In this document: one piece after another, positions 3,429-44,880 of the stretch
Position numbering within the stretch: position 1 is the stretch's first letter
Layout of the letters: every line of letters starts with the position of its first letter
Origin: an uncultured Bacteroidales bacterium
Lineage (GTDB): Bacteria; Bacteroidota; Bacteroidia; Bacteroidales; WCHB1-69
Direction: 5' to 3'
DNA length: 64,000 nucleotides
NCBI GenBank assembly: GCA_905233625.1
Contig: CAJOFJ010000020.1
Span: 1 to 64,000, forward strand
Made by a program: the position numbers and the translations under genes
The notes under the pieces: generated by a model
Told to the model about the DNA's origin: nothing
The model's database searches: none
Seen by the model: only the letters and a program-made list of their open reading frames with translations

Positions 3429-3454
3429 AAACTCCCCTTCAAACAGGGGAGTTT
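3429..3454. terminator. Hairpin terminator between convergent uvrB and the OmpA/TPR lipoprotein gene
   Basis: A 10-bp stem AAACTCCCCT (3429-3438) pairs with AGGGGAGTTT (3445-3454) around a TCAAAC loop, directly after the uvrB stop. The A run at 3425-3431 becomes a T run on the minus strand, so it reads best as a Rho-independent terminator for the minus-strand gene about 95 nt away. It may also stop uvrB transcripts. Confidence 0.7.
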
Positions 3455-3530
3455 CGCTTCGCTCAAGGGGAGTCTCATGCTATGCATTCGAGGGGAGTGG
3501 ACTTCGTCCAAAGGGGAGTCCTCCTCGAAC
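3452..3530. repeat. Modular mini-hairpin array, AGGGGAGT linker type
   Basis: Linker words AGGGGAGT recur at roughly 3445, 3466, 3491 and 3511. Between them sit small hairpins: TTTCGC-TTC-GCTCAA (3452-3466), ATGC-TAT-GCAT (3477-3487) and TGGAC-TTC-GTCCA (3498-3510). The first fits the covarying core seen in the arrays near 40 kb, 41.4 kb and 44.8 kb; the others are looser. Confidence 0.55.
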
Positions 3531-23631: not shown

Positions 23632-23772
23632 TGAAGGCGTGAAGACATGCACTTCGTGCATTCGTTAAGACGACATTCTGTTTTTTCCGCCTTCACACCT
23701 CCACGAACGAGCGAAGCGAGTGTCTTGACGAACGAACAGAGTGAGTGTCTTCACGTCTTAACATCTCCACGT
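23632..23772. repeat. Modular 25-bp-period mini-hairpin array between ftcD and nusB
   Basis: Octamer linkers (CGTGAAGG, CGTGAAGA, CGTTAAGA and reverse complements) alternate with 15-nt cores. The cores are ATGCAC-TTC-GTGCAT (23647-23661), ACGAGC-GAA-GCGAGT (23707-23721) and ACGAAC-AGA-GTGAGT (23732-23746). The last two start exactly 25 bp apart. On the minus strand these read ACTCGC-TTC-GCTCGT and ACTCAC-TCT-GTTCGT, with one inner base pair changed on both sides. The array begins right after the ftcD stop. Confidence 0.75.
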
Positions 23773-27708: not shown

Positions 27709-30700
27709 TTATTTAACGATAGCCACTTTGTAAACACCTACACCGTTTTCGGTAGCCAGTCTTACAACATAGTTGCCTTCAGCCACATTCAGTGAAATCA
27801 CTTCAGGACTGCTCAGTACTTTGCCAGTATAAACTTGCTTACCATAGATGTCATAGATGTCAACATTGCTGATAGCGATACCGTCTTCGTTCACAATGTA
27901 AATATTGTTCTGGAAGCTGTAAACCTTGATACTTGACATGTCGGCATCAGCAATACCCACACCGTTTCTGGTTGTGAAACCGTTTTCAGCCCATTCAGAT
28001 TCTAATGAGGTACCACAGATAGCCTTAACACCCCATGAATACAGTGTGTTAGGAGTCAAACCTGACAAGGACAAAGTAGTGGTGTTTACAGTTTGAGTCT
28101 GATATGTAGTTTCACCAGCAGCTCTGTAGCGAACTTCGTAGCTCGGAGCGGTACCTACCCAGCTCAAATCAGCTGAAGTAGAGGTGACGTTCATAGCAGT
28201 CAAGTTGGTCGGCATGTAGCAAGCAGCCTCGAAGACAGCTGTAATAGTATGATCGTTGGTTACATTGTTGAAAGTAAAGCCAGAGATTGCACCTCTGCTT
28301 GAACCGTCAACGATTACATCGCTGATAACATAGAATTCATCAGGAGTGATGGTGAATTCAACACTGCTACCATATTCAACACCCGTTTGAGTAGCAGGTG
28401 CGATAGTACCATTGATGCCCTGAACAACGGTGATGGTGAAGGTCTTCGGCTGAGTAGTAGCTGTCAAGGTGATGTCTGCCAAAACAGGATCCAGCGTGAA
28501 GGTTCCGATACCATTGTTGTAGTCTACATTCACTACGCCATTGCCAGCGGTAACACTTACGATGTCATAACCCACTTCAGGAATAATCATGTATGAAGGA
28601 GTTGCACCATATGCGTAGGTCAGGGTACCAGGAGTAATAGTAGCGTGTGCAGGCTGATCAACAGTAACTGTTACGTAGTCTGATGCGAAGTTAGCGAAGA
28701 TAGTGTAATCGCTCTGAACATCGATAATTGTGAAGCTGTTGTTTGTAACAGCAACTTCTTCACCGTTTGCCATAACATTAACCAAATGATAACCAGCAGC
28801 GGCATTCAGAGTATAAGGAACACTGCTTCCAGCTTGAACGGTAAGAGTAGCAGGTGTAATTGTGCAACCCTCAATGTTAGAAGTAGCGGTCAAGGTGTAC
28901 ATAACAGCCTCGAAGGTTACATCAACAGTATGGTTTGCAGTAACGTTGATGAATTCATAGAATTCAACAGCGCCAACACTTATACCGTCAACAACAACAT
29001 CAGCAACCTGATAATTAGCGTCAGGAGTAATGTTCAAGCTGAAGTTGCTACCATAAACAACATTTTCGCTTATTGAAGCAGCACCATTCACAGTACCATA
29101 TTCACTTGCGTTTGCAGTAATAGTGTACATGAACTGAGCGAAGGTTACGCTTACACTGTGATCAGCATCGATACTAGTATAAGGTACACTCAAAGTAACC
29201 ATAGCATCTTCCTGAGTGTAAGTGGTGGTTACACCGTCAATTTCTGTAGATGAAATGTACCAACCTTCGTTAGCGTTGATTTCGTATGTTAAATCAGTAC
29301 CATAGTTTACAATCTGAGTTCCCTCAGGAGTAATGCTACCACCTTCAGTTACTTCAGAAGTCATAGTGTAAGTATTCACTGCGAAATAAGTGTTGATAAC
29401 ATAGTTGTCAGCCACATTTTCGATTGTGTAAGTGAAGGTTTCAGGATCAGTGATTTCCATTTCATTGTTATTGAACACCACTGAAACGATATGATGTCCT
29501 TCAGCTGCGGTAGCGGTGAATTCATAATCAACCGGACTTTCAGGATCATAAATGAAGCTGATACCGTCGCTTACAGTACCTTCACCATATGCATTAGTAG
29601 TAATGGTATAGGTGTTAGCAACGAATACGATATCGAATACGTGAGCTTCTTCAATGTAGTTGAACTGGTAGTTATTGGCAGTGTACAGGTTCTGACCATC
29701 CAAAGTAACATTGTCGATAGAATAACCGGTAGCGGGTACGATATTGCTATACCAGTTGTCAGCGTAGTTCACGATAGTGCTGTAACTGTCACCATCAACC
29801 AAGAGACCGCTTGCGTCAGCATAACCCTGACCAGCAATCACATTGTAAGTGATAGCAAAGGTATCAACCTTAACCACAGCTTCGATAGTGTAGTTTTCAG
29901 CGATAGAATCCATAGTGAAGTAGTAGTAATGAGGATCACTACCGAATACCACTTCGTCAATTCTGTTTTCACCATTCACGAGGAACTGATACAGGTGGAA
30001 ATGCTCTTCAACCGTACCAACAACCATCATAGGATCATATTCAGCCACATACTGGGTGTCAGGAGTAATAGTACCCATGATATCCGTAATGCTGTCATAC
30101 GTATTGTAATTGCTTACGAATGCATCGATTCTGTAACCGAACTGGATGTCCACAGTCTGAGTTTCAGTAACATCTTCGAAAGTGTAGCTGTCAATACGAC
30201 CTTGAGACTCACCGTTAACAAAAACATTCACAATATGATAGCCGTCGTTTACATCAGCACCGAAAGCAACGGTAGTATCCACATCGTGATTTACGGAATA
30301 GTCAACCCAAGTGGTGTAGGTTTCACCTGCGTTCAACAGTTCACTATCATTAGCATAACCCTTACCAGTCAAAACATTGTAGTTGATAGCCACAGTGTCT
30401 CTTCTGAAAGTAGCGTTCAGATAGTAATTAGCCACCACTAAAGTATCAATAGTATAGTTGTAAGTGCCATCACCATTGTTCACAACATCGGCGAATACAT
30501 CTTCTGGGTTATCAGGAACCACCAGGCTGAGGGTCAAGCCAGCCAAATGATAGTGAGGATCAGCCACCATGTTCACAGTGAAAGGATCAGGATTGATAGT
30601 AGTGTCAGTAGCTGCGGGAACAAATGCACCACCGAGATCGCTATAGAGGTCTGATCTGTAGTTTTCAACAGTCTTGAAGATATGGAATTCAAGTTTGAAA

Positions 30701-33700
30701 TCTACGAATACGGTATGAGGCTCTGTAACATTCTCCAAGGTATAGAGCATGAAGTTAGCGCCTGTACCGTCTTCGGGAACAACCTGTACATCGTCAACCC
30801 ATACACCAGCCACGTGGTACATAGGAGCCGGCACAAGGTTCAAAGTGAGGTTTTCACCATAGTTGACAGCGATAGTGCCATTAGGAGTAACCGTACCACC
30901 CAACTCATTGTAAGTTACGATAACATCGTTAACAGGATATACTTTGAAGTTATCGATGCTGAAACCTAAGTTGCCAGGCAATGAAGTGGCGTGGAAACCG
31001 AAGTTGTAGATACCGTCTGCGTCAATAGTGATAGTAGTGGTAGCTGTCTCATTGGTAGTATTGTTGAAACTATGAGTAGCCACAGCGTTGGTCATATCGG
31101 CGATATGTGCGCCATTGCCATAGAATAATTCGAAGGATTCGGTCAGTGAGCTATTAGCTTTATAGTCATAGATAATGGTATAAGTACCAGCAGCCATTTC
31201 AATACAAGGTGACATCATCCAGTCGTCAGCAGCGGCCAAATCGTTGAAAGTATAGTAAATCTCGTTGTCCAGATTCATAGTGACACCGTCGTTGTTGGCA
31301 TCGATCGGGTTCCAACCATGGTTGATAGTCAGACCAGCGAATGTTTCAACGTAAGGAACAGTGGCAGGTTCCAGAACAGTAATAGGAGCGGAAGCAACTG
31401 TATTGTTAGCATCCACAAGGTCACCTTCCAATTCAACCCAAGCAACGATGAAGTTTGCACCAGCTGCAAATGTGGGCAACTGACCGAAAGTATATTCAGC
31501 AGTTTCATTGAAAGCAATCGGAGTTTCCAAAGTAACAGTTTCATGAACCGGAGTTTCCTCGTTCACTTGATAATAAGCTTCGAAAGTACTCACTGTACCT
31601 TCATAACCCATATTCTTCACACCAATAGTAACTGCATCTTCCACATCGCAAGCGTCAGCAAAAGTGTTGATGTCTGTGATAGCCAAATCTGTAGCTTCAG
31701 GACAAATGGTCAGTCTAATATTGCTATGGTGTTTTCTTAATGTACCTGCCTGTCCAGCATACGCTGCCGCATCTTGTTGCCATGTAAGAGCTGAATTGTG
31801 AGTAGTGGTTGTCGTCTTAAAGGTATGAGAAGAACTATTATAAGCACCCGAATTATCTTCAACAACGATAGCCAAATTACCACCAGCGTATGAAAATGGT
31901 GTATTCAAGGCAAATTCGTTCCAACCTTGTGCACAATTCAGATTGCCTTCATATACCAATTGTAATCCATCTGTAATCCAGTCACTTGTGCTTGCAAATT
32001 CTGATTTGTCAGTATTTACCATATAAATCTTCACATTGTTCTTACTTGTCATGGCACTTGAGTAAGCATATTCAAATGAAATGGAAGAAATGGTGCCCAC
32101 GGCATTGATTTCCTCTGCGGTAAGAATTTGCTGAGTATAAGAATAATTATAGTAGTTACCAACAGGAATATAATTCTGATTTGAACCAGTACCTGCAATC
32201 TCTGCATCAGTACCTGCGATACACTTAGTTGCGAAACCAATCGCATCGGTATATTCACTTTCATCACCAGTACCGCAAACAGCCTTTACACGTACAGTGT
32301 AGTTGGTTGAAGCCTGGAGGTTGTTCAGGAGAGCATAAGTGGTGTCAACAGAAACACTGGTCCAGGTAGCATCACCCTCTACCATGTATTCAACAGCATA
32401 AGCAGCCTGGTCATAATTATCAGCCCAATTGACAGCAGCTGTATGGTCAGTAACTTCTGAAACAGTTAATGATGAAGGAACGAAGCAAGTGGGAATAGCT
32501 TCCACCAAAATATTATCAACATATGTATAATTGTACCAATAGCTATTGGTATAACCTTCTGGTTTTTCTTTAGTTTCACGGAATGCGATATAACCATTTC
32601 CACTATAATCACTCAATGGAATTGTAAATCTTTCACCTGCAACAGGAGCAGAAATAGTTTGAATAAGGGTGAAACTTGTTTCAGGATTAGCAGCGTCAGT
32701 AACAACACCCACATCCAATCTTGAACCATAGTAAGTAGAAGTTGAATTATATGCTTTTGCATCAAAAGAAATCATCAAGGTATTAATTGCGGCGTCCAAC
32801 TGAGGCAGCACAGCATACACTTCACCATATGAAGTTGAAGTTGAAGTAGTGCAATAGCTATATAATCTCAATGAGTTGGTACCGCTCACAGCGTATGATG
32901 AGCTATTGTAAATACCTGCACCGTATGAGGTTGAAGTACCCGTATATTTTCTGTTCCAGCAGAGTGGCATTACCATGGTTGACTGGCTTGTTGTGGAAGT
33001 ATAAGCGTCGAAATTCTCTGCGAAAGGAACTGCGGCCAAACCACAAACAGTGTTGATACTTAATTCTGTGCTTGTTACTTCTGACTCGTCAGTAGCTGAG
33101 CAAATAGCTTTTACGCTGAATGGCAGTACATAGTGGGTAGAAGCTGACAAACCCGTAATGATGTAAGGATTTTCGGTAGTAGTTAATGTAGTGGTTTGAT
33201 CACCAATGGTATAAGAAACTTCCCATTCAGTTTCGCTGCCACCGGCAGTCCAAGAAACTTGAGCTGTGGTTTCAGTAACTGTACCAACGGTAATAGCAGA
33301 CGGTTTCATGCAAGAGGGAGCTTCCTCAATTGCAACATTATCCACAAAGATTGCACCACTACCATAGTTGGCATTAGAGAAGAACTGCAATATGATAGAT
33401 TTACCAGCGTATGCTGCCAATGAAATAGGATCAGCCTCGGTGAATGTACCTGGATTTGTATAATTAGAACCAGTACTTGTGTATGATCCCAACTCAACAG
33501 CTTGTGTTGTGCCTTGTTCTATTACATTTACCTTGAATGCACCGCAACTTGCTCTGTGTGAATAGTCAAACTTCAATACATATACACCTGTATTTGGCAA
33601 TGTGATCACTGGCGAATTGATAAGTGCCGTACCACTTTGTACATAGTAATTGTACATACGCATCATTTTATTACCGCTATAGCTATATACACCCCAAATA

Positions 33701-36700
33701 CGTTCAGGATAATTGTTTATTGTTGAAGAAGTAGAAGCACTATTGTCCCAGCAATTGGCTACTGTACTAGCATCAAAACCCTCAAAGTTTTCGTTCCATG
33801 GTAAGCTACTTATTGCCAAACAAGGAGTAGTGAAACTTGCAGCTGCTGACCAGTCGGAATAATCTTCACCACCACAATTGGTACGTACACTTACCTGATA
33901 AGTGGTACTGCCTTCCAAAGTAAATACGGTTGACAAATCAACAGTGGTCCCATTAACCGTAGCAGTTTGTTCACCAATCATCAATTCGTAAGAAGCAGGA
34001 GTACCAAGTTCATTTGGTGTAATGGTAGCGGTTAAACCGTTAACGCTGATAGAAGGAGTACCGCAAGTCGGAGCCGGCTTGATAGTCACATCATCCAAAA
34101 AGACACCATGACCATAATTACCTGTCGCTTCGAAAGCAAATTGGCAAGAAGAAGACATTGCAGCAGCAATAGAAGTAATACTACTTGTGTAAGCCTGCAA
34201 CAATACCCAATTGCTGCTCATAGAAGTACGGTAATAAACTCTCAATTCATCTTGATCTCCAGCCCATTCAGCTTGTGAATGTTTGAAAGTCAAAATAAGA
34301 TTTGAAGAAGAAGACAAATCAAATGCAGGAGTAACCAACTTGGTTACGTAATCATAGTCACTAACAACAAACGTAGCATCATTGCTGCCTGAACCATATG
34401 TTACGTCGACATCTACTTCCCAGTTTTGCGTATCAGAAACATATTCTTGTGACCAGCATTCGGGCGGGAAGACATCACCTTCGAAGTCCTGAGTGTAAGG
34501 AATTTCAGTCAAAGGCATACAAGGAGTGGTAACCATGAGGGTAACCCAGTTGCTCTCCATGTTCTCGCCGCAAACTGACTGAACACCCATTTCATAAGTA
34601 ACATTGGATGCTAAACCTGAAATCGTAACGAAGGGATTCCAACCTTCAAATGGTACATTTACAACTACAGTGGTATATTCTTCAGCACTTTCCTCTTTAT
34701 ATCTAACATTATACTGTGCAGGAGTTCCCCATTCACCATTGTTCCAATGTAATTGGGCGGAAGTGAAATCAAAACTCAAATTCATAGGATCAGAGCAAGC
34801 GGGAGCGGTGGTCTGAGTAACAGGACCATTCCATACGCCATTGTCACCTGCACAAACTACTCTTACATAGAAGTCGTAAGTTGTCTCGTAATTCAATCCA
34901 CCAATTGTAGTGGCAGTAGTGTCGGTTACATCAACAATAGTACCTTCATCCAAGTTGAAACCTTGTTCACCATATTGAATCTGATAGTTGGTAACTGCTT
35001 CATCAGCTTCCCAAGCCAAGTCAACAGTAGTACCCGTTACATTGGAAGTAGTCAAAGCAGTAACTTCGAACGGACACTGGTTAACATTAACATTATAGAA
35101 ATACTGGAAGCTTGTGCTGTTGTTCACAATCTTGAAGTTAACAGCTCTACCTTTATACAGGTCGGCGATGGCAACCGTAACGATTGTATTTTGGTTAGGA
35201 GCAATACCCGAATAAATTGCTTCAAAACGGTCGGCTCTGGTACCTCTGTATGAAGCCAAAATAGTATATTCACCTGCACCGCGTACTTCAAATGACAAGT
35301 AAGTCGGGTTTTCAGCAGGAATATTGATAGCGGGAGTGATCAACTCTGCACCATTGGTATTTGAATATGCGTAACCACTGGTTGAGAAATGGAAATTCTG
35401 ATTTTCCCAGCAAGTGGGCATAGTGTTTGTTGAGAATTCTTCAGCGAAAGGAATTTCAAAGGCAGCGCAACCTGAATGGAAAGAAGTGCTTGCCCATTCG
35501 CTCTGGTTTTCTGTGTCGTTAGGATCACATAAAGCTTTCACGCGTACCTCATAATCGGTGTTGCCTTGCAAACCACCAAAAGTGGTCATCGGAATCAAGC
35601 TTACTTCGATAGAAGTCCAAGCGTCGTCACCAGCAGTAGCGGGTTTGAACTGTACCAACCAAGCACTTTCTTCACCACCGGGGAGCCAAGTCAAAGTTGT
35701 TGTATTGGAAATATTAGAAGTTTCCAGATTAGTAACAGGAGCGCAGATACCCTCGGTTCTGAAAGAGGTGGTAAGCACTTCACTCCAGTTGTTTTCACCA
35801 CAGTTGGCCTTTACGCGAACGCTGTAGTTGGTCAACTGAGCCAGTTCGGTCAAAGTGTAAGTGGTGTCATTTACATCAACAGAAGTCCATTCGGTAGCAC
35901 CTTCTGCCATATATTCCACGATGAAAGCGGTCTCGTCTGCTGAACCAGCAACCCAAGTCAGCACTGCGCTGTTAGGAGTGATGTCAGAAACTTCCAAAGC
36001 AGTGGGAGCAACACAAGCGATTTGATCGTCACATGCAACCACAGTAACATCCATGTTCAACTTCATGTTGTTTCTATACTCATTGAAGTATTTGGTACCA
36101 GTTGCTGTTGCAGGACTTGTATATGATACTGCTGATTGAGTATCATCATAATGCATAATAGACTTGTTAGTAGTAGTTGAATGAACATAGAAAGAACCTC
36201 CGTTCCATGAACCATTACCTTCATAATAAGCTACTACCAAATTATCACCAGTATATTCAAACGGAGTATCAAAGGTGAAAGTATTCCAACCCGTTTGATA
36301 AGCGTATGAAGAAGGTCCTTCATATACCAAAGTCAAGTTTGCTGGATCAATATAATCGGTATTGCTATCGAATACTGATTTTGTAGTATTAGCCATCCAG
36401 ATTTTAATATTACCGGTACTTGTGGAAGCCGGTGCGGATGAACAATTGAAACTTACAGAATAGATATTACCTGCAGTTGTATTAATTTCCTCAGCATCAA
36501 TAATCTGCTGTGAATAAGTATAATTATAGGTTCCATAGAACGGCAAATAAGAATTAGTGCTTGTTCCATTACCAATAAGAACATCGTCTTGTGTAGTCAC
36601 TACTGTTTCCGACTGGCAAGCCACTGCGAAAGTACCAGTAGTCCAAGCGCTCACGTTCTCGCCGCAAACAGCCTGCACTCTCATATCATAGTTGCTGTTG

Positions 36701-38136
36701 CCTTGGAGGTCAGTCAAAGTATAAGTAGTTTCAGTAACAGGAATGTTGTACCATTCGCTATGGTCAGCCAATTTGTACTGGAGGTTCCAAGCGGTCTGGC
36801 CTTCAACAGCTGTCCATGTAATCACAGCGGTGGTGCTGTCAACGGTAGCTGTCAAAGCGGTAGGCTGTGAGCAAGGAGTCTCAATCACAGAAATGTTGTC
36901 GATAGCGGCGGGGAACTGGTTACCATTGGTAGCATTGTTCACCCAATTGAACTGGATGCAAACTTCGCCAGCCATTTCACCAGAGATGTCATAGCTGAAA
37001 GAAGCCCAGTCATTCTCGCCTTGCAGAGTAGCGATTTCGGTAGTGGTTTCACCTTTTACCAAGTTAACCTTCAGATAGTCGTTATTAGCTTGACCATTCA
37101 CACGGTAGTCGAAGCTCAAGATGGCACCAGTTTCGGGAACCATCACGGTACGGTAGGCCATCACGTTGCTGGCTTTGGTTACATCGTACTTGTTGGTGAT
37201 ACCGTTGTTAGATGATATATACAACTTATTATTATCGAAACCTTGGGCTTGGCCAACATACCATTTGTTAACGGCTTCGCCATTGTTGATCATGAAATAA
37301 GGATCATTGCCTTCGTCAAAGTTGTAAGCGTAGGGCAGGGTTGCGATAGAGTCAAGTTCCAGAACTGTGGGTTCATCGGGTTCAACGGGGGTCACATTGA
37401 TTGTATAGGTGGCAGTTGCCATATCGCTTGCGGTCTCACCCACAAAAGCGATGGCATTAATAGTAGTGGTTTCAGTAATTTCAATAGCATTTTCATAAAG
37501 TGTAGAACTTGCGGTAGGAGTAGTGCCATCGAGAGTGTAATAAATAGCGGCACCTTCGGTAGCGCAAGCAATCGTCACATTCTGAGCGGCGGTATAAGTA
37601 CCAGCTTCAGGAGCGAAAGTAGGAACGTCAACCACAACGGGTGTGGGAGGTTCGGGAGTAGAAACAGTATAAGTTATCGTAAGAGCTGCAATTCTACGAT
37701 GGCTACTAGTTCCACCTATAGTGAAAATAACAGTATCTCCATTCCCGGTCCATGATCCATCTTCATACGTTCCAACATTGGAAGTTATCGCATTAGAATT
37801 ATCACCACTTCCAAAGGTAAAAGCAATAGCCGTTATGATGGCATTATCTACAGTTACCGTCATGTTATTGCCAGCATACAAACGAATAGCTGCTCCAGTA
37901 GTATAGTACTTAGGAACAGAATTGGAACTGGTGTTCGTACCCTGATCAAACGTTAGGGAAATATCGTTTACCGAAAGAGAAGTAACTGCTTCTCCATTCG
38001 TGTAACCTTGCTCGCTGAAAGTGATTGTCACCTCCTCAGCGAACAAACTTCCCACTGCCATTAGCATCACTAGCAAAATGGCCACCAAACTTTTTGCCCC
38101 TCGGGCGAAAGCTTGAAAAGTGTCAAATTTTTTCAT
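27709..38136 (-). CDS. Giant T9SS-exported adhesin-like surface protein (3475 aa)
   Basis: The longest gene in the window. A signal peptide ends around GSLFAEE (residue 34). A chitobiase/beta-hexosaminidase C-terminal type repeat (about 175-245, YYTLDGTTPTASS) is followed by cleaved-adhesin/choice-of-anchor jelly-roll modules (openings such as LPYAYNFDEGNDPYF, IPYTQDFEGDVFPPECW, LPWNENFEGF, VPFAENFDAY). These alternate with fibronectin type III domains (CxxPTxLxxxxxTxxxAxxxW, near residues 422, 702, 792, 1018, 1605 and 1878). A CARDB-like domain lies near 2150. About 2400-3300 holds roughly ten bacterial repeat domains with GxGTVxPxGxxxVxYG-like starts. A last FnIII domain (about 3307-3395) and a T9SS type A sorting domain (GKQVYTGKV, NYVVRLATENGVGVYKV) close it. 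Likely an adhesin or surface scaffold; the ligand is unknown. Confidence 0.9.
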   Translation of the reverse strand: MKKFDTFQAFARGAKSLVAILLVMLMAVGSLFAEEVTITFSEQGYTNGEAVTSLSVNDISLTFDQGTNTSSNSVPKYYTTGAAIRLYAGNNMTVTVDNAIITAIAFTFGSGDNSNAITSNVGTYEDGSWTGNGDTVIFTIGGTSSHRRIAALTITYTVSTPEPPTPVVVDVPTFAPEAGTYTAAQNVTIACATEGAAIYYTLDGTTPTASSTLYENAIEITETTTINAIAFVGETASDMATATYTINVTPVEPDEPTVLELDSIATLPYAYNFDEGNDPYFMINNGEAVNKWYVGQAQGFDNNKLYISSNNGITNKYDVTKASNVMAYRTVMVPETGAILSFDYRVNGQANNDYLKVNLVKGETTTEIATLQGENDWASFSYDISGEMAGEVCIQFNWVNNATNGNQFPAAIDNISVIETPCSQPTALTATVDSTTAVITWTAVEGQTAWNLQYKLADHSEWYNIPVTETTYTLTDLQGNSNYDMRVQAVCGENVSAWTTGTFAVACQSETVVTTQDDVLIGNGTSTNSYLPFYGTYNYTYSQQIIDAEEINTTAGNIYSVSFNCSSAPASTSTGNIKIWMANTTKSVFDSNTDYIDPANLTLVYEGPSSYAYQTGWNTFTFDTPFEYTGDNLVVAYYEGNGSWNGGSFYVHSTTTNKSIMHYDDTQSAVSYTSPATATGTKYFNEYRNNMKLNMDVTVVACDDQIACVAPTALEVSDITPNSAVLTWVAGSADETAFIVEYMAEGATEWTSVDVNDTTYTLTELAQLTNYSVRVKANCGENNWSEVLTTSFRTEGICAPVTNLETSNISNTTTLTWLPGGEESAWLVQFKPATAGDDAWTSIEVSLIPMTTFGGLQGNTDYEVRVKALCDPNDTENQSEWASTSFHSGCAAFEIPFAEEFSTNTMPTCWENQNFHFSTSGYAYSNTNGAELITPAINIPAENPTYLSFEVRGAGEYTILASYRGTRADRFEAIYSGIAPNQNTIVTVAIADLYKGRAVNFKIVNNSTSFQYFYNVNVNQCPFEVTALTTSNVTGTTVDLAWEADEAVTNYQIQYGEQGFNLDEGTIVDVTDTTATTIGGLNYETTYDFYVRVVCAGDNGVWNGPVTQTTAPACSDPMNLSFDFTSAQLHWNNGEWGTPAQYNVRYKEESAEEYTTVVVNVPFEGWNPFVTISGLASNVTYEMGVQSVCGENMESNWVTLMVTTPCMPLTEIPYTQDFEGDVFPPECWSQEYVSDTQNWEVDVDVTYGSGSNDATFVVSDYDYVTKLVTPAFDLSSSSNLILTFKHSQAEWAGDQDELRVYYRTSMSSNWVLLQAYTSSITSIAAAMSSSCQFAFEATGNYGHGVFLDDVTIKPAPTCGTPSISVNGLTATITPNELGTPASYELMIGEQTATVNGTTVDLSTVFTLEGSTTYQVSVRTNCGGEDYSDWSAAASFTTPCLAISSLPWNENFEGFDASTVANCWDNSASTSSTINNYPERIWGVYSYSGNKMMRMYNYYVQSGTALINSPVITLPNTGVYVLKFDYSHRASCGAFKVNVIEQGTTQAVELGSYTSTGSNYTNPGTFTEADPISLAAYAGKSIILQFFSNANYGSGAIFVDNVAIEEAPSCMKPSAITVGTVTETTAQVSWTAGGSETEWEVSYTIGDQTTTLTTTENPYIITGLSASTHYVLPFSVKAICSATDESEVTSTELSINTVCGLAAVPFAENFDAYTSTTSQSTMVMPLCWNRKYTGTSTSYGAGIYNSSSYAVSGTNSLRLYSYCTTSTSTSYGEVYAVLPQLDAAINTLMISFDAKAYNSTSTYYGSRLDVGVVTDAANPETSFTLIQTISAPVAGERFTIPLSDYSGNGYIAFRETKEKPEGYTNSYWYNYTYVDNILVEAIPTCFVPSSLTVSEVTDHTAAVNWADNYDQAAYAVEYMVEGDATWTSVSVDTTYALLNNLQASTNYTVRVKAVCGTGDESEYTDAIGFATKCIAGTDAEIAGTGSNQNYIPVGNYYNYSYTQQILTAEEINAVGTISSISFEYAYSSAMTSKNNVKIYMVNTDKSEFASTSDWITDGLQLVYEGNLNCAQGWNEFALNTPFSYAGGNLAIVVEDNSGAYNSSSHTFKTTTTTHNSALTWQQDAAAYAGQAGTLRKHHSNIRLTICPEATDLAITDINTFADACDVEDAVTIGVKNMGYEGTVSTFEAYYQVNEETPVHETVTLETPIAFNETAEYTFGQLPTFAAGANFIVAWVELEGDLVDANNTVASAPITVLEPATVPYVETFAGLTINHGWNPIDANNDGVTMNLDNEIYYTFNDLAAADDWMMSPCIEMAAGTYTIIYDYKANSSLTESFELFYGNGAHIADMTNAVATHSFNNTTNETATTTITIDADGIYNFGFHATSLPGNLGFSIDNFKVYPVNDVIVTYNELGGTVTPNGTIAVNYGENLTLNLVPAPMYHVAGVWVDDVQVVPEDGTGANFMLYTLENVTEPHTVFVDFKLEFHIFKTVENYRSDLYSDLGGAFVPAATDTTINPDPFTVNMVADPHYHLAGLTLSLVVPDNPEDVFADVVNNGDGTYNYTIDTLVVANYYLNATFRRDTVAINYNVLTGKGYANDSELLNAGETYTTWVDYSVNHDVDTTVAFGADVNDGYHIVNVFVNGESQGRIDSYTFEDVTETQTVDIQFGYRIDAFVSNYNTYDSITDIMGTITPDTQYVAEYDPMMVVGTVEEHFHLYQFLVNGENRIDEVVFGSDPHYYYFTMDSIAENYTIEAVVKVDTFAITYNVIAGQGYADASGLLVDGDSYSTIVNYADNWYSNIVPATGYSIDNVTLDGQNLYTANNYQFNYIEEAHVFDIVFVANTYTITTNAYGEGTVSDGISFIYDPESPVDYEFTATAAEGHHIVSVVFNNNEMEITDPETFTYTIENVADNYVINTYFAVNTYTMTSEVTEGGSITPEGTQIVNYGTDLTYEINANEGWYISSTEIDGVTTTYTQEDAMVTLSVPYTSIDADHSVSVTFAQFMYTITANASEYGTVNGAASISENVVYGSNFSLNITPDANYQVADVVVDGISVGAVEFYEFINVTANHTVDVTFEAVMYTLTATSNIEGCTITPATLTVQAGSSVPYTLNAAAGYHLVNVMANGEEVAVTNNSFTIIDVQSDYTIFANFASDYVTVTVDQPAHATITPGTLTYAYGATPSYMIIPEVGYDIVSVTAGNGVVNVDYNNGIGTFTLDPVLADITLTATTQPKTFTITVVQGINGTIAPATQTGVEYGSSVEFTITPDEFYVISDVIVDGSSRGAISGFTFNNVTNDHTITAVFEAACYMPTNLTAMNVTSTSADLSWVGTAPSYEVRYRAAGETTYQTQTVNTTTLSLSGLTPNTLYSWGVKAICGTSLESEWAENGFTTRNGVGIADADMSSIKVYSFQNNIYIVNEDGIAISNVDIYDIYGKQVYTGKVLSSPEVISLNVAEGNYVVRLATENGVGVYKVAIVK

Positions 38137-38545: not shown

Positions 38546-39943
38546 ATGAATCCATTATTTAAAGCGGAAGTTTACCAGAACCGCCGCACCCAGTTGAAAA
38601 AAGCCGTGAAAAGCGGTATTGCCATCTTTTTAGGCAACAGCGAAGCCCCCATGAATTATCCTTCCAACACCTATAAATACCGTCAGGACAGCAATTTCCT
38701 GTATTTCTTCGGTCTCTCCATTGCCGACATCGCCGCCGTCATCGATTTTGACGAGAACCGCAACATCATTTTCGGCAATGACTTCGAGATTGACGACATC
38801 ATCTGGATGGGCAACCAGCCCACGCTGGCATCCTTGGCCGAGAAAGTGGGTGTGAAAGAGGTGATGCCCATGGCCAAGCTGAGCGAATACATCCATGCCG
38901 CCCAAGCCGCCGGCCGTCAAGTGCACTTCACCCCGCCCTACCGTGGCGACAACAAGATATGGCTGTCCAACCTCACTGGTATCAACGTGAACGACATCCG
39001 CAACCACGCTTCGGCAGAACTGATCAAGGGTATCGTGAACCTGCGCTCCGCCAAGGAGGACTGCGAAATCGAGCAGATGGAGAACGCCTGCGAAATCGGC
39101 TATAAGATGCACACCGCCGTGATGCGCCGCTGCGTGGCCGGCGTGCCCGAACTGGAGCTGGCTGGCTTGGCCGAAGGTATCACCCTGTCGTACGGCAATG
39201 GCGTGTCCTTCCCCATCATCCTGTCACAGCACGGCGAAACCCTGCACAACCACGGCCATGAAGCTATCCTGCAGGAAGGCAACATGCTGCTGATGGACGC
39301 TGGCGCCGAAAACCTGATGAACTACTGCTCCGACAATACCCGTACCCTGCCTGTGGGCGGCCGCTTCACCCAAAAGCAAAAGGAAATCTACGAAATCGTG
39401 CTGAAAGCCAACATGGACGCCATCGACGCTGCCAAACCCGGCGTGTATAACAAGGAACTGCATACGCTGTCCTGCAAAGTCATCGCCGAAGGCCTGTCAC
39501 AGTTAGGCTTGATGAAAGGCGATGTGGATGAAGCCGTACGCCTAGGTGCCCACGCCCTGTTTATGCCCCACGGTTTAGGCCATCAGTTGGGCTTGGACGT
39601 GCACGACATGGAAGACCTCGGCGAGAACTTCGTCGGCTATGATGAAACTGTGAGCCGCAGCGACATCTTCGGTTGGAGCGCCCTGCGTATGGCCCGCGAG
39701 CTGAAACCCGGCTTCATCGTGACCATCGAACCGGGCATCTATTTCATCCCGCAACTGATTGACATCTGGAAAAACGAACACAAGTTCGAGCAATTCATCA
39801 ACTACGACAAGGTGGAGCAATACCGTGACTTCGGCGGCATCCGCATCGAGGACGACCTGCTGATTACCGCCGACGGCCACAAAGTGCTCGGCCCCGCCAT
39901 CCCTAAAACCCCGAAGGAGCTGGAGGAGATTATAGGGAAGTAA
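38546..39943 (+). CDS. pepP: Xaa-Pro aminopeptidase (aminopeptidase P, M24B)
   Basis: A 465-residue metallopeptidase that removes N-terminal residues preceding proline. The N-terminal AMP_N domain (about residues 1-135, YKYRQDSNFLYFFGLSIADI) is followed by the pita-bread catalytic domain. Metal ligands are visible: Asp in LLMDAGAENLMNYCSDNTRT (about 250-265), His in MPHGLGHQLGLDVHDMED (about 340-355), Glu in IVTIEPGIYF (about 393) and Glu in IRIEDDLLIT (about 433). All are present, so the enzyme should be active. It has its own promoter, and its stop codon is followed at once by a modular repeat array. Confidence 0.95.
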   Translation: MNPLFKAEVYQNRRTQLKKAVKSGIAIFLGNSEAPMNYPSNTYKYRQDSNFLYFFGLSIADIAAVIDFDENRNIIFGNDFEIDDIIWMGNQPTLASLAEKVGVKEVMPMAKLSEYIHAAQAAGRQVHFTPPYRGDNKIWLSNLTGINVNDIRNHASAELIKGIVNLRSAKEDCEIEQMENACEIGYKMHTAVMRRCVAGVPELELAGLAEGITLSYGNGVSFPIILSQHGETLHNHGHEAILQEGNMLLMDAGAENLMNYCSDNTRTLPVGGRFTQKQKEIYEIVLKANMDAIDAAKPGVYNKELHTLSCKVIAEGLSQLGLMKGDVDEAVRLGAHALFMPHGLGHQLGLDVHDMEDLGENFVGYDETVSRSDIFGWSALRMARELKPGFIVTIEPGIYFIPQLIDIWKNEHKFEQFINYDKVEQYRDFGGIRIEDDLLITADGHKVLGPAIPKTPKELEEIIGK

Positions 39944-40165
39944 CGGGAAGACGGGGAGACATGCACTGCGTGCATTCGGGAAGACGTACACTACGTGTAC
40001 TCGGGGAGACGGGAAGACGGATAGACGATATCGTATAACCGAGTGAACGAAGTGAACGTCTCCTCGAACGAGCGTAGCGAGTGACTTCCCGAGCGAATGA
40101 AATGAGCGTCTCCCCGAGCGAGCAAAGCGAGCATCTCCCCGAGTGAGCAAAGCGAACGACTTAAC
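39944..40165. repeat. Modular 25-bp-period mini-hairpin array between pepP and ackA
   Basis: The clearest array in the window. It starts at the base after the pepP stop with octamers CGGGAAGA and CGGGGAGA. Cores ATGCAC-TGC-GTGCAT (39961) and GTACAC-TAC-GTGTAC (39986) start 25 bp apart. Five cores in the opposite orientation start at 40043, 40068, 40093, 40118 and 40143, again exactly 25 bp apart. On the minus strand these five have the form n1 n2 TC n3 n4, a three-base loop, then n4' n3' TC n2' n1'. The outer and inner pairs differ between copies but stay complementary, and the central TC/TC mismatch is constant. Confidence 0.85.
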
Positions 40166-40189
40166 GTAATAAAAACAAAAATAAACAAC

Positions 40190-41389
40190 ATGAAAGTATT
40201 AGTACTCAACTGCGGAAGTTCGTCAATCAAATACCAGCTGATTGACATGGCCAACAATGCCGAATTGAAAGCTAAGGGTTTGGTAGAACGTATCGGCTTG
40301 GAAATGGGTGAATTCACCCACAAACCTGTCGGCAAGGACAAATATTATGTACAGACCCCTATCAAAGACCATGAAGTAGGTGTCAACTTAGTGCTGAAAG
40401 CCCTGACCGACCCCGTTCACGGTGTCATCAGCGACCTTAACGAGATTGGAGCGGTAGGTCATCGTGTGGCTCACGGCGGCGAATATTTCAAGAAAAGCAT
40501 GATTTTGGGCGAGCAAGAACTCGAAGAAATCAAGAAACTGTGTGAGTTGGCACCCTTGCATAATCCCGCCAGCTTACTGGGTATCAAGGTGATGCAGAAA
40601 CTTCTGCCCAATGTGAAACATGTGGGCGTTTTCGACACCTCTTTCCATCAGACCATGCCGGCAGAAGCTTATCTGTATGCTATTCCTTACGAATACTATA
40701 CCAATAATAAGGTGAGACGCTATGGTTTCCACGGCACCAGCCATAAATATGTGGGTCCTAAGGCTGCCGAAATCGCTGGCGTGGATTACAACAACTCCAA
40801 AATTATCAGCTGCCACTTGGGTAACGGCGCTTCCATCTGCGCCATCAAGAACGGCAAGTCTGTGGACACTTCCATGGGTTTCACCCCTGTTGAAGGTTTG
40901 GTGATGGGTACCCGCTGCGGCGACCTTGACCTTGGCGCCCTGATTTACATTGCTGAAAAGGAAAACATGGACTTCAAAGCCATGAACACTTTCATCAACA
41001 AGAAATGCGGTTTGCTCGGTATTTCCGGCAAGAGTGTGGACATGCGCGATATCCGCGCCGGCAAGGACAGCGGCGACGAGCGCTCCAAATATGCTTTCGA
41101 CATGTTCGCTTACAGAGTGAAGAAATATATCGGTGCATACGCCGCTGCCATGGGTGGTGTGGATGTCATCCTTTTCACCGGCGGTATCGGCGAGAACGCT
41201 TGGTTCCAGCGCGAAGCCATCTGCCAAGGACTTGAATTTCTGGGCTGCACCCTTGACAAGGCCGAAAATGAGAGACTGGCTGGTCAGGATGGTATTATCT
41301 CCACTCCCGACTCCCGCGTGAAACTCGTTTCCGTCACCACCAACGAAGAGTTAGTGATCGCCACGGATACGTATAATCTCGTGAAGTAG
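40190..41389 (+). CDS. ackA: Acetate kinase
   Basis: AckA (399 residues) interconverts acetyl phosphate plus ADP with acetate plus ATP, the ATP-yielding step of acetate fermentation. The ASKHA fold motifs are visible: NCGSSSIKYQL (residues 6-16), VGHRVAHGGEYF, GVFDTSFHQTMP, HGTSHKYV, CHLGNGASICAI and LFTGGIGENAWFQRE. It is full length. Its usual partner pta (phosphotransacetylase) is not adjacent, although the two often form an operon. No TAnnTTTG box is obvious upstream, where a repeat array fills the gap, so expression may depend on read-through from pepP or an unseen promoter. Confidence 0.97.
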   Translation: MKVLVLNCGSSSIKYQLIDMANNAELKAKGLVERIGLEMGEFTHKPVGKDKYYVQTPIKDHEVGVNLVLKALTDPVHGVISDLNEIGAVGHRVAHGGEYFKKSMILGEQELEEIKKLCELAPLHNPASLLGIKVMQKLLPNVKHVGVFDTSFHQTMPAEAYLYAIPYEYYTNNKVRRYGFHGTSHKYVGPKAAEIAGVDYNNSKIISCHLGNGASICAIKNGKSVDTSMGFTPVEGLVMGTRCGDLDLGALIYIAEKENMDFKAMNTFINKKCGLLGISGKSVDMRDIRAGKDSGDERSKYAFDMFAYRVKKYIGAYAAAMGGVDVILFTGGIGENAWFQREAICQGLEFLGCTLDKAENERLAGQDGIISTPDSRVKLVSVTTNEELVIATDTYNLVK

Positions 41390-41515
41390 CGTGAAGGCGT
41401 GGAGACACTCGCTTTGCTCGTTCGTGGAGGCGTGAAGACGTGAAGACGTGAAGACGTGAAGACGTGGAGACGTGGAGGCGTGGAGGCGTTAGTGTGTTCA
41501 TTAATGTCTTCACGC
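41390..41515. repeat. Octamer array (CGTGAAGA) with one mini-hairpin core, between ackA and the IVP gene
   Basis: Directly after the ackA stop: CGTGAAGG, CGTGGAGA, then core ACTCGC-TTT-GCTCGT (41407-41421), then eight tandem octamers (41423-41486: CGTGGAGG, four CGTGAAGA, CGTGGAGA, two CGTGGAGG). It ends with reverse-oriented TGTCTTCACG. The four identical CGTGAAGA units show that octamers expand in tandem. Confidence 0.8.
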
Positions 41516-41519
41516 TTTT

Positions 41520-41894
41520 CTATTCTTCACTTTGTTTCATTAAATATTCACGATATTTTGTCATCAAAAGACTATTCTTATAAATAAGATCATATATCTC
41601 CTGCAAACTATCTTTTTGTATATACTGTAATTCTTCTGCTATCTGTAGCTGACAGAAAACTTCCATTAATGAGCTGTATGCTATACTTATAAAGTGTACT
41701 TTTTCTTTTAAAGATATCCTGCCACTTCCTTCTGCAATATTTGATGGAACAGATACACAAGCTCTTCTCAATTGATCACACAATGCATATCTTTCTACTT
41801 TTGGAAATTTTTCAATCAATGTATAAATCTGTATCACCAATTGTTTGCTGACCTTCCATACATCAAGATTCTCAAAACTATAATAATGTTTCAT
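41520..41894 (-). CDS. Four-helix-bundle protein of the 23S rRNA intervening-sequence (IVP/S23) family
   Basis: A 124-residue all-helical protein. The N-terminal YYSFENLDVWKVSKQLVIQIYTL and the central ALCDQLRRACVSVPSNIAEGSGR are diagnostic of the IVP family. Such proteins were first found encoded in intervening sequences of 23S rRNA but are common as free-standing genes in Bacteroidota, with no settled function. This copy is more AT-rich than its neighbours, points against ackA and aroB, and is flanked on both sides by the same octamer repeats (41390-41515 and 41975-42022). A TATTTTTG promoter box lies 27 nt upstream. Confidence 0.9.
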   Translation of the reverse strand: MKHYYSFENLDVWKVSKQLVIQIYTLIEKFPKVERYALCDQLRRACVSVPSNIAEGSGRISLKEKVHFISIAYSSLMEVFCQLQIAEELQYIQKDSLQEIYDLIYKNSLLMTKYREYLMKQSEE

Positions 41895-43055: not shown

Positions 43056-43184
43056 ATGCGTTAAGGCGTGGAGACGTGAAGACATGCACTGTGTGCATTC
43101 GTTAAGACGACATTTTGTTATTCATCTTTAACGTCTCCACGAACGAGCGAAGCGAGTGTCTCCACGTCTTAACGCCTTAACGTC
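43056..43184. repeat. Modular mini-hairpin array between convergent aroB and the DUF4301 gene
   Basis: Starts at the aroB stop with CGTTAAGG, CGTGGAGA and CGTGAAGA octamers and core ATGCAC-TGT-GTGCAT (43084-43098). After a unique middle (about 43109-43130) come reverse-oriented octamers with core ACGAGC-GAA-GCGAGT (43143-43157) and TCTTAACGCCTTAACG up to the next stop codon. The two halves form one large imperfect inverted repeat. Confidence 0.75.
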
Positions 43185-44751: not shown

Positions 44752-44880
44752 AATCGTTAAGACATTCGCTTCGCTCATTCGTTAAGACGTTAAGACATGC
44801 ACTGCGTGCATTCGTGAAGACGAAATTCGCCTCTACGTCTCCACGAACGAGCGAAGCGAGTGTATCCACGTCTTCACGAA
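44752..44880. repeat. Modular mini-hairpin array between divergent DUF4301 and HAD genes
   Basis: Octamers CGTTAAGA and CGTGAAGA with cores ATTCGC-TTC-GCTCAT (44764-44778) and ATGCAC-TGC-GTGCAT (44797-44811), 33 bp apart (25 plus one extra octamer). A reverse-oriented core ACGAGC-GAA-GCGAGT follows (44847-44861). Unlike most copies it lies between divergent genes, so it cannot serve only as a terminator. Confidence 0.75.

Follow-up and report, generated by a model that had tools for sequence, protein, structure and literature searches.

Which kind of element fills the gap between a peptidase-like and an acetate-kinase-like gene of an uncultured Bacteroidales bacterium, where seven 15-nt cores stand in two facing groups, and why do the partner bases of these cores agree from copy to copy? 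The gap lies in the window, i.e., the whole stretch of 64,000 nucleotides that was analyzed, and holds two core types, P and T. Its parts, as read from sequence, cores, spacing, and ORFs, are the following:

38546..39943, upstream ORF, peptidase-like by eye; its stop codon adjoins the element
39944..40166, + strand, whole composite element P> P> center <T <T <T <T <T
39944..39960, + strand, left 8-nt linkers CGGGAAGA and CGGGGAGA plus C
39961..39975, + strand, P core 1, ATGCAC-TGC-GTGCAT, a perfect 6-bp palindrome
39986..40000, + strand, P core 2, GTACAC-TAC-GTGTAC
40001..40042, + strand, center: linkers CGGGGAGA, CGGGAAGA, and CGGATAGA, then the near-palindrome GATATCGTATAACC, the point at which the linkers reverse direction
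40043..40057, − strand, T core 1 (+ strand GTGAAC-GAA-GTGAAC)
40068..40082, − strand, T core 2 (+ strand ACGAGC-GTA-GCGAGT)
40093..40107, − strand, T core 3 (+ strand GCGAAT-GAA-ATGAGC)
40118..40132, − strand, T core 4 (+ strand GCGAGC-AAA-GCGAGC)
40143..40157, − strand, T core 5 (+ strand GTGAGC-AAA-GCGAAC)
40190..41389, downstream ORF, acetate-kinase-like by eye

All seven cores start where the original prediction had placed them (39961 and 39986, forward; 40043, 40068, 40093, 40118, and 40143, reverse) and follow each other at 25 bp within each group, a unit that consists of an 8-nt linker, one base, the 15-nt core, and one base. The two forward cores are of another type than the reverse ones: they are perfect palindromes (P) without TC/TC. 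Read in the direction of the element, the gene context is ++, with 17 bp between the upstream ORF and the first core and 32 bp between the last core and the downstream ORF. The linkers are inverted between the two sides, an arrangement from which the whole element is predicted to fold with P and T hairpins opposite each other (−82.8 kcal/mol and z of −4.4 as RNA; −43.4 kcal/mol and z of −3.9 as DNA), and the sequence ATAACCGA of the center is found again in other long arrays. An Rfam search of the 64-kb window gave one tRNA above the gathering score and no other family.

Two core types set in an 8-nt phase

Cores were extracted blind to their own sequence, anchored on the linkers only, from the loci of the same genome plus the window and from loci of congeners. 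This yielded 125 15-mers in the own genome (68 T, 52 P, and 5 others) and 219 in the congeners (130 T, 84 P, and 5 others). Read on the strand of the AGAC linker, T is RYTCRY-NNN-RYTCRY, and P is fully palindromic, mostly ATGCAC-NNN-GTGCAT. The inner positions of these 344 cores are TC/TC in 198, GC/GC in 117 (P, fully paired), AC/GT in 10, and TC/GA in 4, and the constancy of the inner TC/TC, first noticed in five copies, thus extends to the T cores at large. The 4-nt foot before the core is AGAC, AGAT, AGTC, or AGTT by the extraction rule and AGAC in nearly all cores listed; the cores begin with RY and are followed by GTCT or GACT. The conserved positions in linkers and core flanks are invariant, in rows picked by a pattern that fixes some of them.

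For same-strand cores within 130 bp of each other, the distance between neighbors is exactly 25 bp in 45 of 53 cases in the own genome and in 47 of 64 in the congeners, and it is 25 + 8k bp in 51 of 53 and 62 of 64, respectively (113 of 117 in total). The predicted 25-bp period therefore persists in other copies, and the spacing rule indicates that 17-nt cassettes are set in an 8-nt phased repeat. The repeat also runs alone, without cassettes, at 41385-41492 of the window. Copies that hold both core types contain only P> and <T in 27 of 33 cases in the own genome and in 59 of 74 in the congeners; the simple form P> <T accounts for 13 of the 52 own copies (tied with a single P>) and for 42 of 95 congener copies.

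An interspersed family found in one genus

Seven further sites had been named in the window (3452, 23707, 23732, 41407, 43143, 44764, and 44847). All of them exist, but the core at 3452 belongs to a sibling family with a different linker. Additional P cores were found at 23647, 43084, and 44797, which gives the following copies:

3430..3520, − strand, sibling family with linker AGGGGAGT, includes the 3452 core; palindromes of several sequences
23643..23750, + strand, second window copy P> <T <T, cores 23647, 23707, and 23732
41385..41492, − strand, one T core (41407-41421) plus an 8-nt repeat run, CGTGAAGA / CGTGGAGG
43076..43161, + strand, copy P> <T, cores 43084 and 43143
44756..44870, + strand, copy T> P> <T, cores 44764, 44797, and 44847

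When the window was scanned for GA..GA cores in which all four outer pairs form, there were 17 matches, 12 of which are the cores named here, compared to a mean of 2.7 and a maximum of 5 in 20 first-order Markov sequences; perfect 6-3-6 palindromes are mildly enriched (28 versus a mean of 17.75 and a maximum of 26 in the Markov control). Genome-wide, the T pattern has 54 matches and its reversed version none, and the P pattern has 52 exact matches and, with up to one mismatch, 91 versus 4 for the reversed pattern. The composite repeat occupies about 50 places in the genome (52 clusters, including one pair that is a contig-end overlap).

Across 148 genomes, the linker-including pattern reached high counts in one genus only and stayed near the reversed control elsewhere. 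A covariance model, the check proposed with the original prediction, found the element in seven of nine genomes of the genus, the own genome among them, with 68, 41, 62, 74, 43, 68, and 10 matches (from at most 80 scored candidates per genome), and in none of the 80 other members of the family searched. The relatives among the matches listed are Bacteroidales or Bacteroidetes MAGs, and at least three of six carriers come from yak or sheep rumen or abomasum. In sum, the P/T family is real: it consists of interspersed composite palindromes, is confined to one genus among the genomes searched, and is not in print as far as literature searches show.

The exact pattern also matched seven loci outside the genus (L075, L079, L090, L114, L117, L122, and L143; non-Bacteroidales or of unnamed phylum), none of which has a 25-bp array and all of which were excluded from the congener counts. 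Three of them (L075, L090, and L122) belong to an interspersed repeat in a single genome titled Mobilicoccus; this repeat has GGTCTCGAGAC and CTCGACCAAC parts with a GCTCGCTTCGCTCGC-type hairpin and is apparently independent of the P/T family. The single match in SIG153 (L072) lies in apparently coding sequence, lacks linkers, and yields no core, and its genome has no P match. Carriage by phage was considered because of one match in a viral collection and was dropped, as its surroundings (L242) hold no P/T array.

Partner bases agree between copies

In 50 distinct T cores, 95.0% of cells are paired (78.7% after shuffling), 58 cells are changed on both sides (21.6 after shuffling), and covariation is 0.730 (0.402 after shuffling and at most 0.166 in slid controls). 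None of 500 shuffles reached any of these three values, which are not formal probabilities since the cores are related copies. Two other measures do not rise above shuffles: 4 pairs are changed on both sides, a value that 220 of 500 shuffles reached, and there are 8 further pair types, reached in 368 of 500. Watson-Crick cells number 184 of 200, with a maximum of 143 in 20,000 permutations of single 3' letters or whole arms. The same holds for 40 longer units read on the GA strand, with 98.8% of cells paired and a covariation of 0.795 versus 0.425 (0 of 500 shuffles); one slid version (+2) came to 66.9% and 0.228, and both-sides pairs and further pair types were unremarkable compared to shuffles. 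Hence, the agreement of partner bases from copy to copy, on which the original prediction was built, goes beyond shuffles and slid controls. As a side observation, 148 of 198 T cores have A-T either at outer pair 1 or at inner pair 5 but not at both, which looks as though each core kept a fixed number of A-T pairs.

On the opposite strand, T reads RYGARY-GNA-RYGARY, and TC/TC becomes GA/GA between pyrimidine and purine. Tandem GA in a 5'-YGAR context is reportedly a sheared G·A motif (work of Chou, Cheng and Reid and of SantaLucia and Turner), and therefore the TC/TC mismatch probably does not stand open; next to a GNA triloop, GA/GA would be a recipe for sheared G·A pairs. The loop region of T on this anti-head strand is commonly GC-GAA-GC, like the d(GCGAAGC)-type GNA mini-hairpin that Hirao is said to have described in 1994; unlike the latter, T sits in natural arrays and adds a tandem GA/GA step and an outer pair block. 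A GNA triloop is present on the anti-head strand in 165 of 198 T cores and 118 of 136 P cores, and a sheared G·A pair is called typical of GNA loops in the part of the source used here (PMC6479982).

Under RNA parameters, GA/GA shares the top rank in stability among 100 tandem mismatches in each of the three contexts tried, and of the two strands of a perfect T core it is the GA strand that has the lower energy (34 of 34). Under DNA parameters, GA/GA comes no higher than rank 14 to 15 of 100. A lone T hairpin is predicted to be marginal or unstable on the GA strand (mean, +0.32 kcal/mol with RNA and +1.52 kcal/mol with DNA parameters). The imperfect outer pairs among 792 cells comprise 16 that are G·T on the GA strand, 7 that are G·T on the TC strand, and 2 others, counts that lean weakly to the GA strand as the folded one. 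For P cores, the energies give no strand preference.

Orthologous copies hardly change, but gaps turn over

Compensatory evolution, as originally claimed, would be visible as paired change in place. In 112 comparisons of orthologous cores with congeners (not independent, as several share one own core), 66 cores were identical, 13 differed in the loop only, 8 differed on one side, 10 were another core, 14 were gapped, and 1 was mixed; change on both partners of a pair was seen in none. The claim in this form must be given up, and the covariation lies between copies.

In 50 comparisons with one alignment spanning the copy, a set that keeps only one-piece alignments and thus favors conserved copies, the element was more alike than third codon positions in 49, with pooled identities of 0.922 for the element, 0.706 for third positions (0.55 to 0.93 in single comparisons; pooled, 0.71), and 0.950 for first plus second positions. 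Twenty orthologous copy pairs are at least 97% identical over at least 60 columns, and third-position identity beside these well-kept copies falls from 0.86 at 0 to 60 bp to 0.71 at 150 to 300 bp. Within the window, the copy at 23643..23750 is identical to congener locus L111 in 120 of 120 aligned columns, and that at 43076..43161 matches congener locus L127 in 93 of 94. The near-identity of retained copies compared to third positions could indicate selection on resident copies, counter to our best explanation (see below). This reading is weakened by a 60-kb control, in which element-free gaps were also well conserved (22 comparisons; the median was 0.89 in one congener, where 13 of 15 gaps aligned, and 0.87 in another, where 9 of 12 did), and element gaps lay at 0.82 to 1.00 in seven of eight cases, the eighth not being alignable. 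High conservation is thus not unique to element gaps, and the notion of an "ultraconservation" of the element was toned down after this control.

The gap at 39944..40166 itself has different contents in its orthologues: AT-rich filler in L067, a different palindrome cluster in L096, and a T> ... <T copy with other cores in L127. Orthologous gaps elsewhere vary too, the element being absent, replaced by another repeat, or present with other cores or in the opposite direction (L092, L097, L078, L124, L100, and L086). Other repeats stand in the orthologous gaps of congeners at L067, L088, L096, L123, and L126 (GTGCTAATTATCAAT-like, CAGTGGTCAGTGATTAG-like, and others), and hence some gaps seem to be rewritten wholesale between species. 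Among the gaps listed, no clean insertion beside an empty site was caught, the element-free gaps there holding unrelated sequence, and we therefore infer movement from the distribution. Furthermore, blocks of at least 60 nt with 88% identity or more connect 27 pairs of different loci (one pair, 38 versus 44, is a contig-end overlap), and in 9 of the 27 the shared block spans the first to the last core in both loci, i.e., P, center, and T. The left ends of shared blocks mostly lie 8 to 31 nt outside the cores; the right ends spread over 0 to about 60 nt. We take this sharing between unrelated loci, together with the turnover, as probable copying of the P-center-T unit.

A probable REPIN-like element outside the described families

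The explanation that we favor, with a probability of roughly 0.5, is that the gap element is a small noncoding, nonautonomous REPIN-like repeat that would spread as a P-center-T unit via a single-stranded hairpin that an enzyme would read. The folded form would be the strand with GA/GA and GNA. The pairs would agree because only copies with a well-formed hairpin get copied on; selection would then act at the copying step and less on the resident copy, and arrays may lengthen by the addition of 25-bp units. Long arrays mostly stand sense between codirectional genes, and an intercistronic transcript with P and T hairpins opposite each other is predicted for them. Pair-preserving variation among paralogous copies next to near-static orthologues helps to separate selection on copying from selection on a resident function.

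The P/T element resembles REPINs and REP-BIMEs as these are described in the parts of the sources used here (PMC3116915, PMC6006769): they are extragenic, occur in many copies, and consist of short palindromes arranged as inverted doublets with a spacer. The same passages predict folding in single-stranded DNA or mRNA, propose the doublet as the copied unit, and report compensatory differences between copies of REPINs. An inverted doublet forming a larger hairpin is present in the P> <T copies counted above. The GT[AG]G tetranucleotide of REPs, 0 to 2 nt 5' of the hairpin, is not: the foot of the element is of the AGAC type, without GTAG or GTGG. The basal stem of REPs has 7 to 20 fully paired nt in the section of the source used (PMC6006769), whereas P has 6 pairs and T has 2 pairs, 2 mismatches, and 2 pairs. 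No cognate RAYT flanked by the repeats was found (0 of 28 Y1 loci). Unlike REPINs, the P/T element has two different facing hairpin types and is extended in tandem in an 8-nt phase. Because of its foot, its stem, and the RAYT result, the element is not filed as a REPIN despite its REPIN-like layout; it is best read as a new REPIN-like element outside the described families.

Two further families invite comparison. CGTC-tagged REPs, in the part of the source used here (PMC3733652), are palindromes without a dedicated transposase, mostly head-to-head dimers, with Bacteroidetes among their phyla; they have a CGTC foot, an 8- to 9-bp stem with AT first, a 4- to 5-nt loop, and a CCA-like tail. None of these sequence features recurs in the P/T element, whose cores are 6 + 3 + 6, start with RY, and are followed by GTCT or GACT, but the P/T family would join them as an orphan palindromic family without a known dedicated transposase. 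Pneumococcal BOX elements, as far as the text used goes (PMC3049150), are likewise composite and lie between genes, with modules at the ends and tandem internal modules whose number varies, and some are transcribed; their modules are about 50 nt (boxA, boxC), whereas P/T has facing 15-nt hairpin types in an 8-nt phase, the comparison being one of modular layout alone. The original prediction knew of no described element with this design, and literature searches led to none either; six core sequences, searched as text, were found in no paper of the collection searched. REPINs and BIMEs, as inverted palindromic doublets between genes, are of a related design.

To look for the enzyme, 28 Y1_Tnp loci were collected from nine genomes of the genus, 3 of them from the own genome and the other 25 from the eight congeners; one locus, L192, probably does not hold a Y1 gene. 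No association with the P/T repeat was found: 0 of 28 loci have P/T cores in the fetched flanks, some of which are cut by contig ends. One Y1 group, with a mean mutual identity of 0.73 to 0.81, is present in seven of seven carriers and in neither of the two noncarriers, and no other Y1 gene exceeds an identity of 0.64 to it (0.60 for the gene of genome G007). The group does not form one supported clade in the tree, and the copy of genome G003 has an abnormal C-terminus. With nine genomes and a choice made afterwards, this group is a lead and not evidence. Several Y1 loci of the genus have palindromes of their own, and L174 has a hairpin of the sibling family. In the own genome, the Y1/RAYT-type genes L001, L002, and L003 have palindromes nearby (TGTGGC.., CATGCC.., and, at L003, GTAG-CGTGCC-TTC-GGCACG). 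A Y1 subclass of Cyanobacteria and Bacteroidetes is without REPs in the part of the source used (PMC6006769); the own Y1 genes have motifs like those of this subclass, yet palindromes adjoin them.

A bolder extension of the favored reading, which we regard as doubtful, is a mobile noncoding repeat of a new kind with a noncanonical mini-hairpin replicator. Its enzyme would read a strand of alternating Watson-Crick and sheared G·A steps (GA-RY-GA-RY-GNA-RY-GA-RY), accept any letters that keep the fold, and write 17-nt cassettes into the 8-nt scaffold, which would give arrays of interchangeable hairpins. Should the folded strand be confirmed, nature may use sheared G·A mini-hairpins as a recognition signal, and it would be worth examining in the same way the GA/GNA hairpins of unrelated repeats, as seen in one actinobacterial genome.

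Transcription and other explanations

It is imaginable, though unlikely, that the element is a functional RNA, i.e., an intercistronic transcript within one operon whose P and T hairpins, opposed on a linker stem, would stabilize the mRNA or adjust the expression of the genes relative to each other, a role reported for some BIMEs of E. coli. Gene context in the direction of the element is ++ in 21, -- in 13, -+ in 7, and +- in 7 of the 52 own copies (4 unclear). The long arrays (at least 3 T cores or a ATAACCGA center) lean toward such a role: 9 of 13 are ++ and 1 is -- in the own genome, and 8 of 13 are ++ and 2 are -- in the congeners, which include orthologues of the same loci. In the nine own ++ arrays, the first core lies 11 to 30 bp past the upstream ORF in six, and the last core ends 29 to 72 bp ahead of the downstream ORF in eight. 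Neither a sigma-70-like promoter nor, on either strand, an intrinsic terminator (a GC-rich stem followed by a T run) was found in 39800-40300. As a transcript, the element has a much more stable fold than shuffled sequence (z of −4.4), and the near-identity of retained copies would fit as well. However, the other strand folds about equally (−80.8 kcal/mol, z of −4.5), short copies have no direction bias (12 ++ and 12 -- of 39 in the own genome, 18 ++ and 29 -- of 82 in the congeners), and at orthologous gaps copies are absent or replaced. Downstream genes look unrelated in function by eye; a regulon was discarded, as the neighbors of long arrays, also read by eye, share no theme. A tie to the S23-like gene at 41520-41894 (PF05635) was likewise dropped: of its five genome copies, only the one in the window is near an element.

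We consider it quite improbable that the arrays have neither a function nor a dedicated mover and are an 8-nt repeat that expands by slippage, with hairpin-templated repair (quasipalindrome correction) keeping its palindromes paired. The nearly exact 8-nt phase, the expansion of 8-nt runs (41385-41492 of the window; L206 and L229), and the four cores turned into TC/GA palindromes would agree with it. Templated repair would, however, make TC/TC into TC/GA, and 198 TC/TC stand against 4 TC/GA; moreover, orthologous copies hardly change, and unrelated loci share blocks. Least probable of all, an array of double-stranded binding sites, in which a protein of the nucleoid or a regulator would bind the 25-bp unit, with the palindromes as half-sites of a dimer, would account for the fixed phase and for the invariant linker and core-flank positions (some of them fixed by the pattern that picked the rows), but half-sites would keep their letters whereas the cores change letters and keep pairing, P and T differ in sequence, and a folded strand is suggested by the constant break of symmetry at TC/TC and by the bias toward GNA loops.

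The sibling family

The AGGGGAGT family was also seen in L088, L210, and L211 and, by a Y1 gene, in L174 (1210). Its palindromes are many (GATGC-TTC-GCATC, GGGC-TTC-GCCC, and others), with loops that are mostly TNC, and mostly of the TTC type in the window copy, and in several of them GA flanks the stem on the other strand too. The window also contains, at 27709-38136, a single ORF of 3475 aa with many repeated stretches, whose C-terminus resembles, by eye, a type IX secretion sorting domain.
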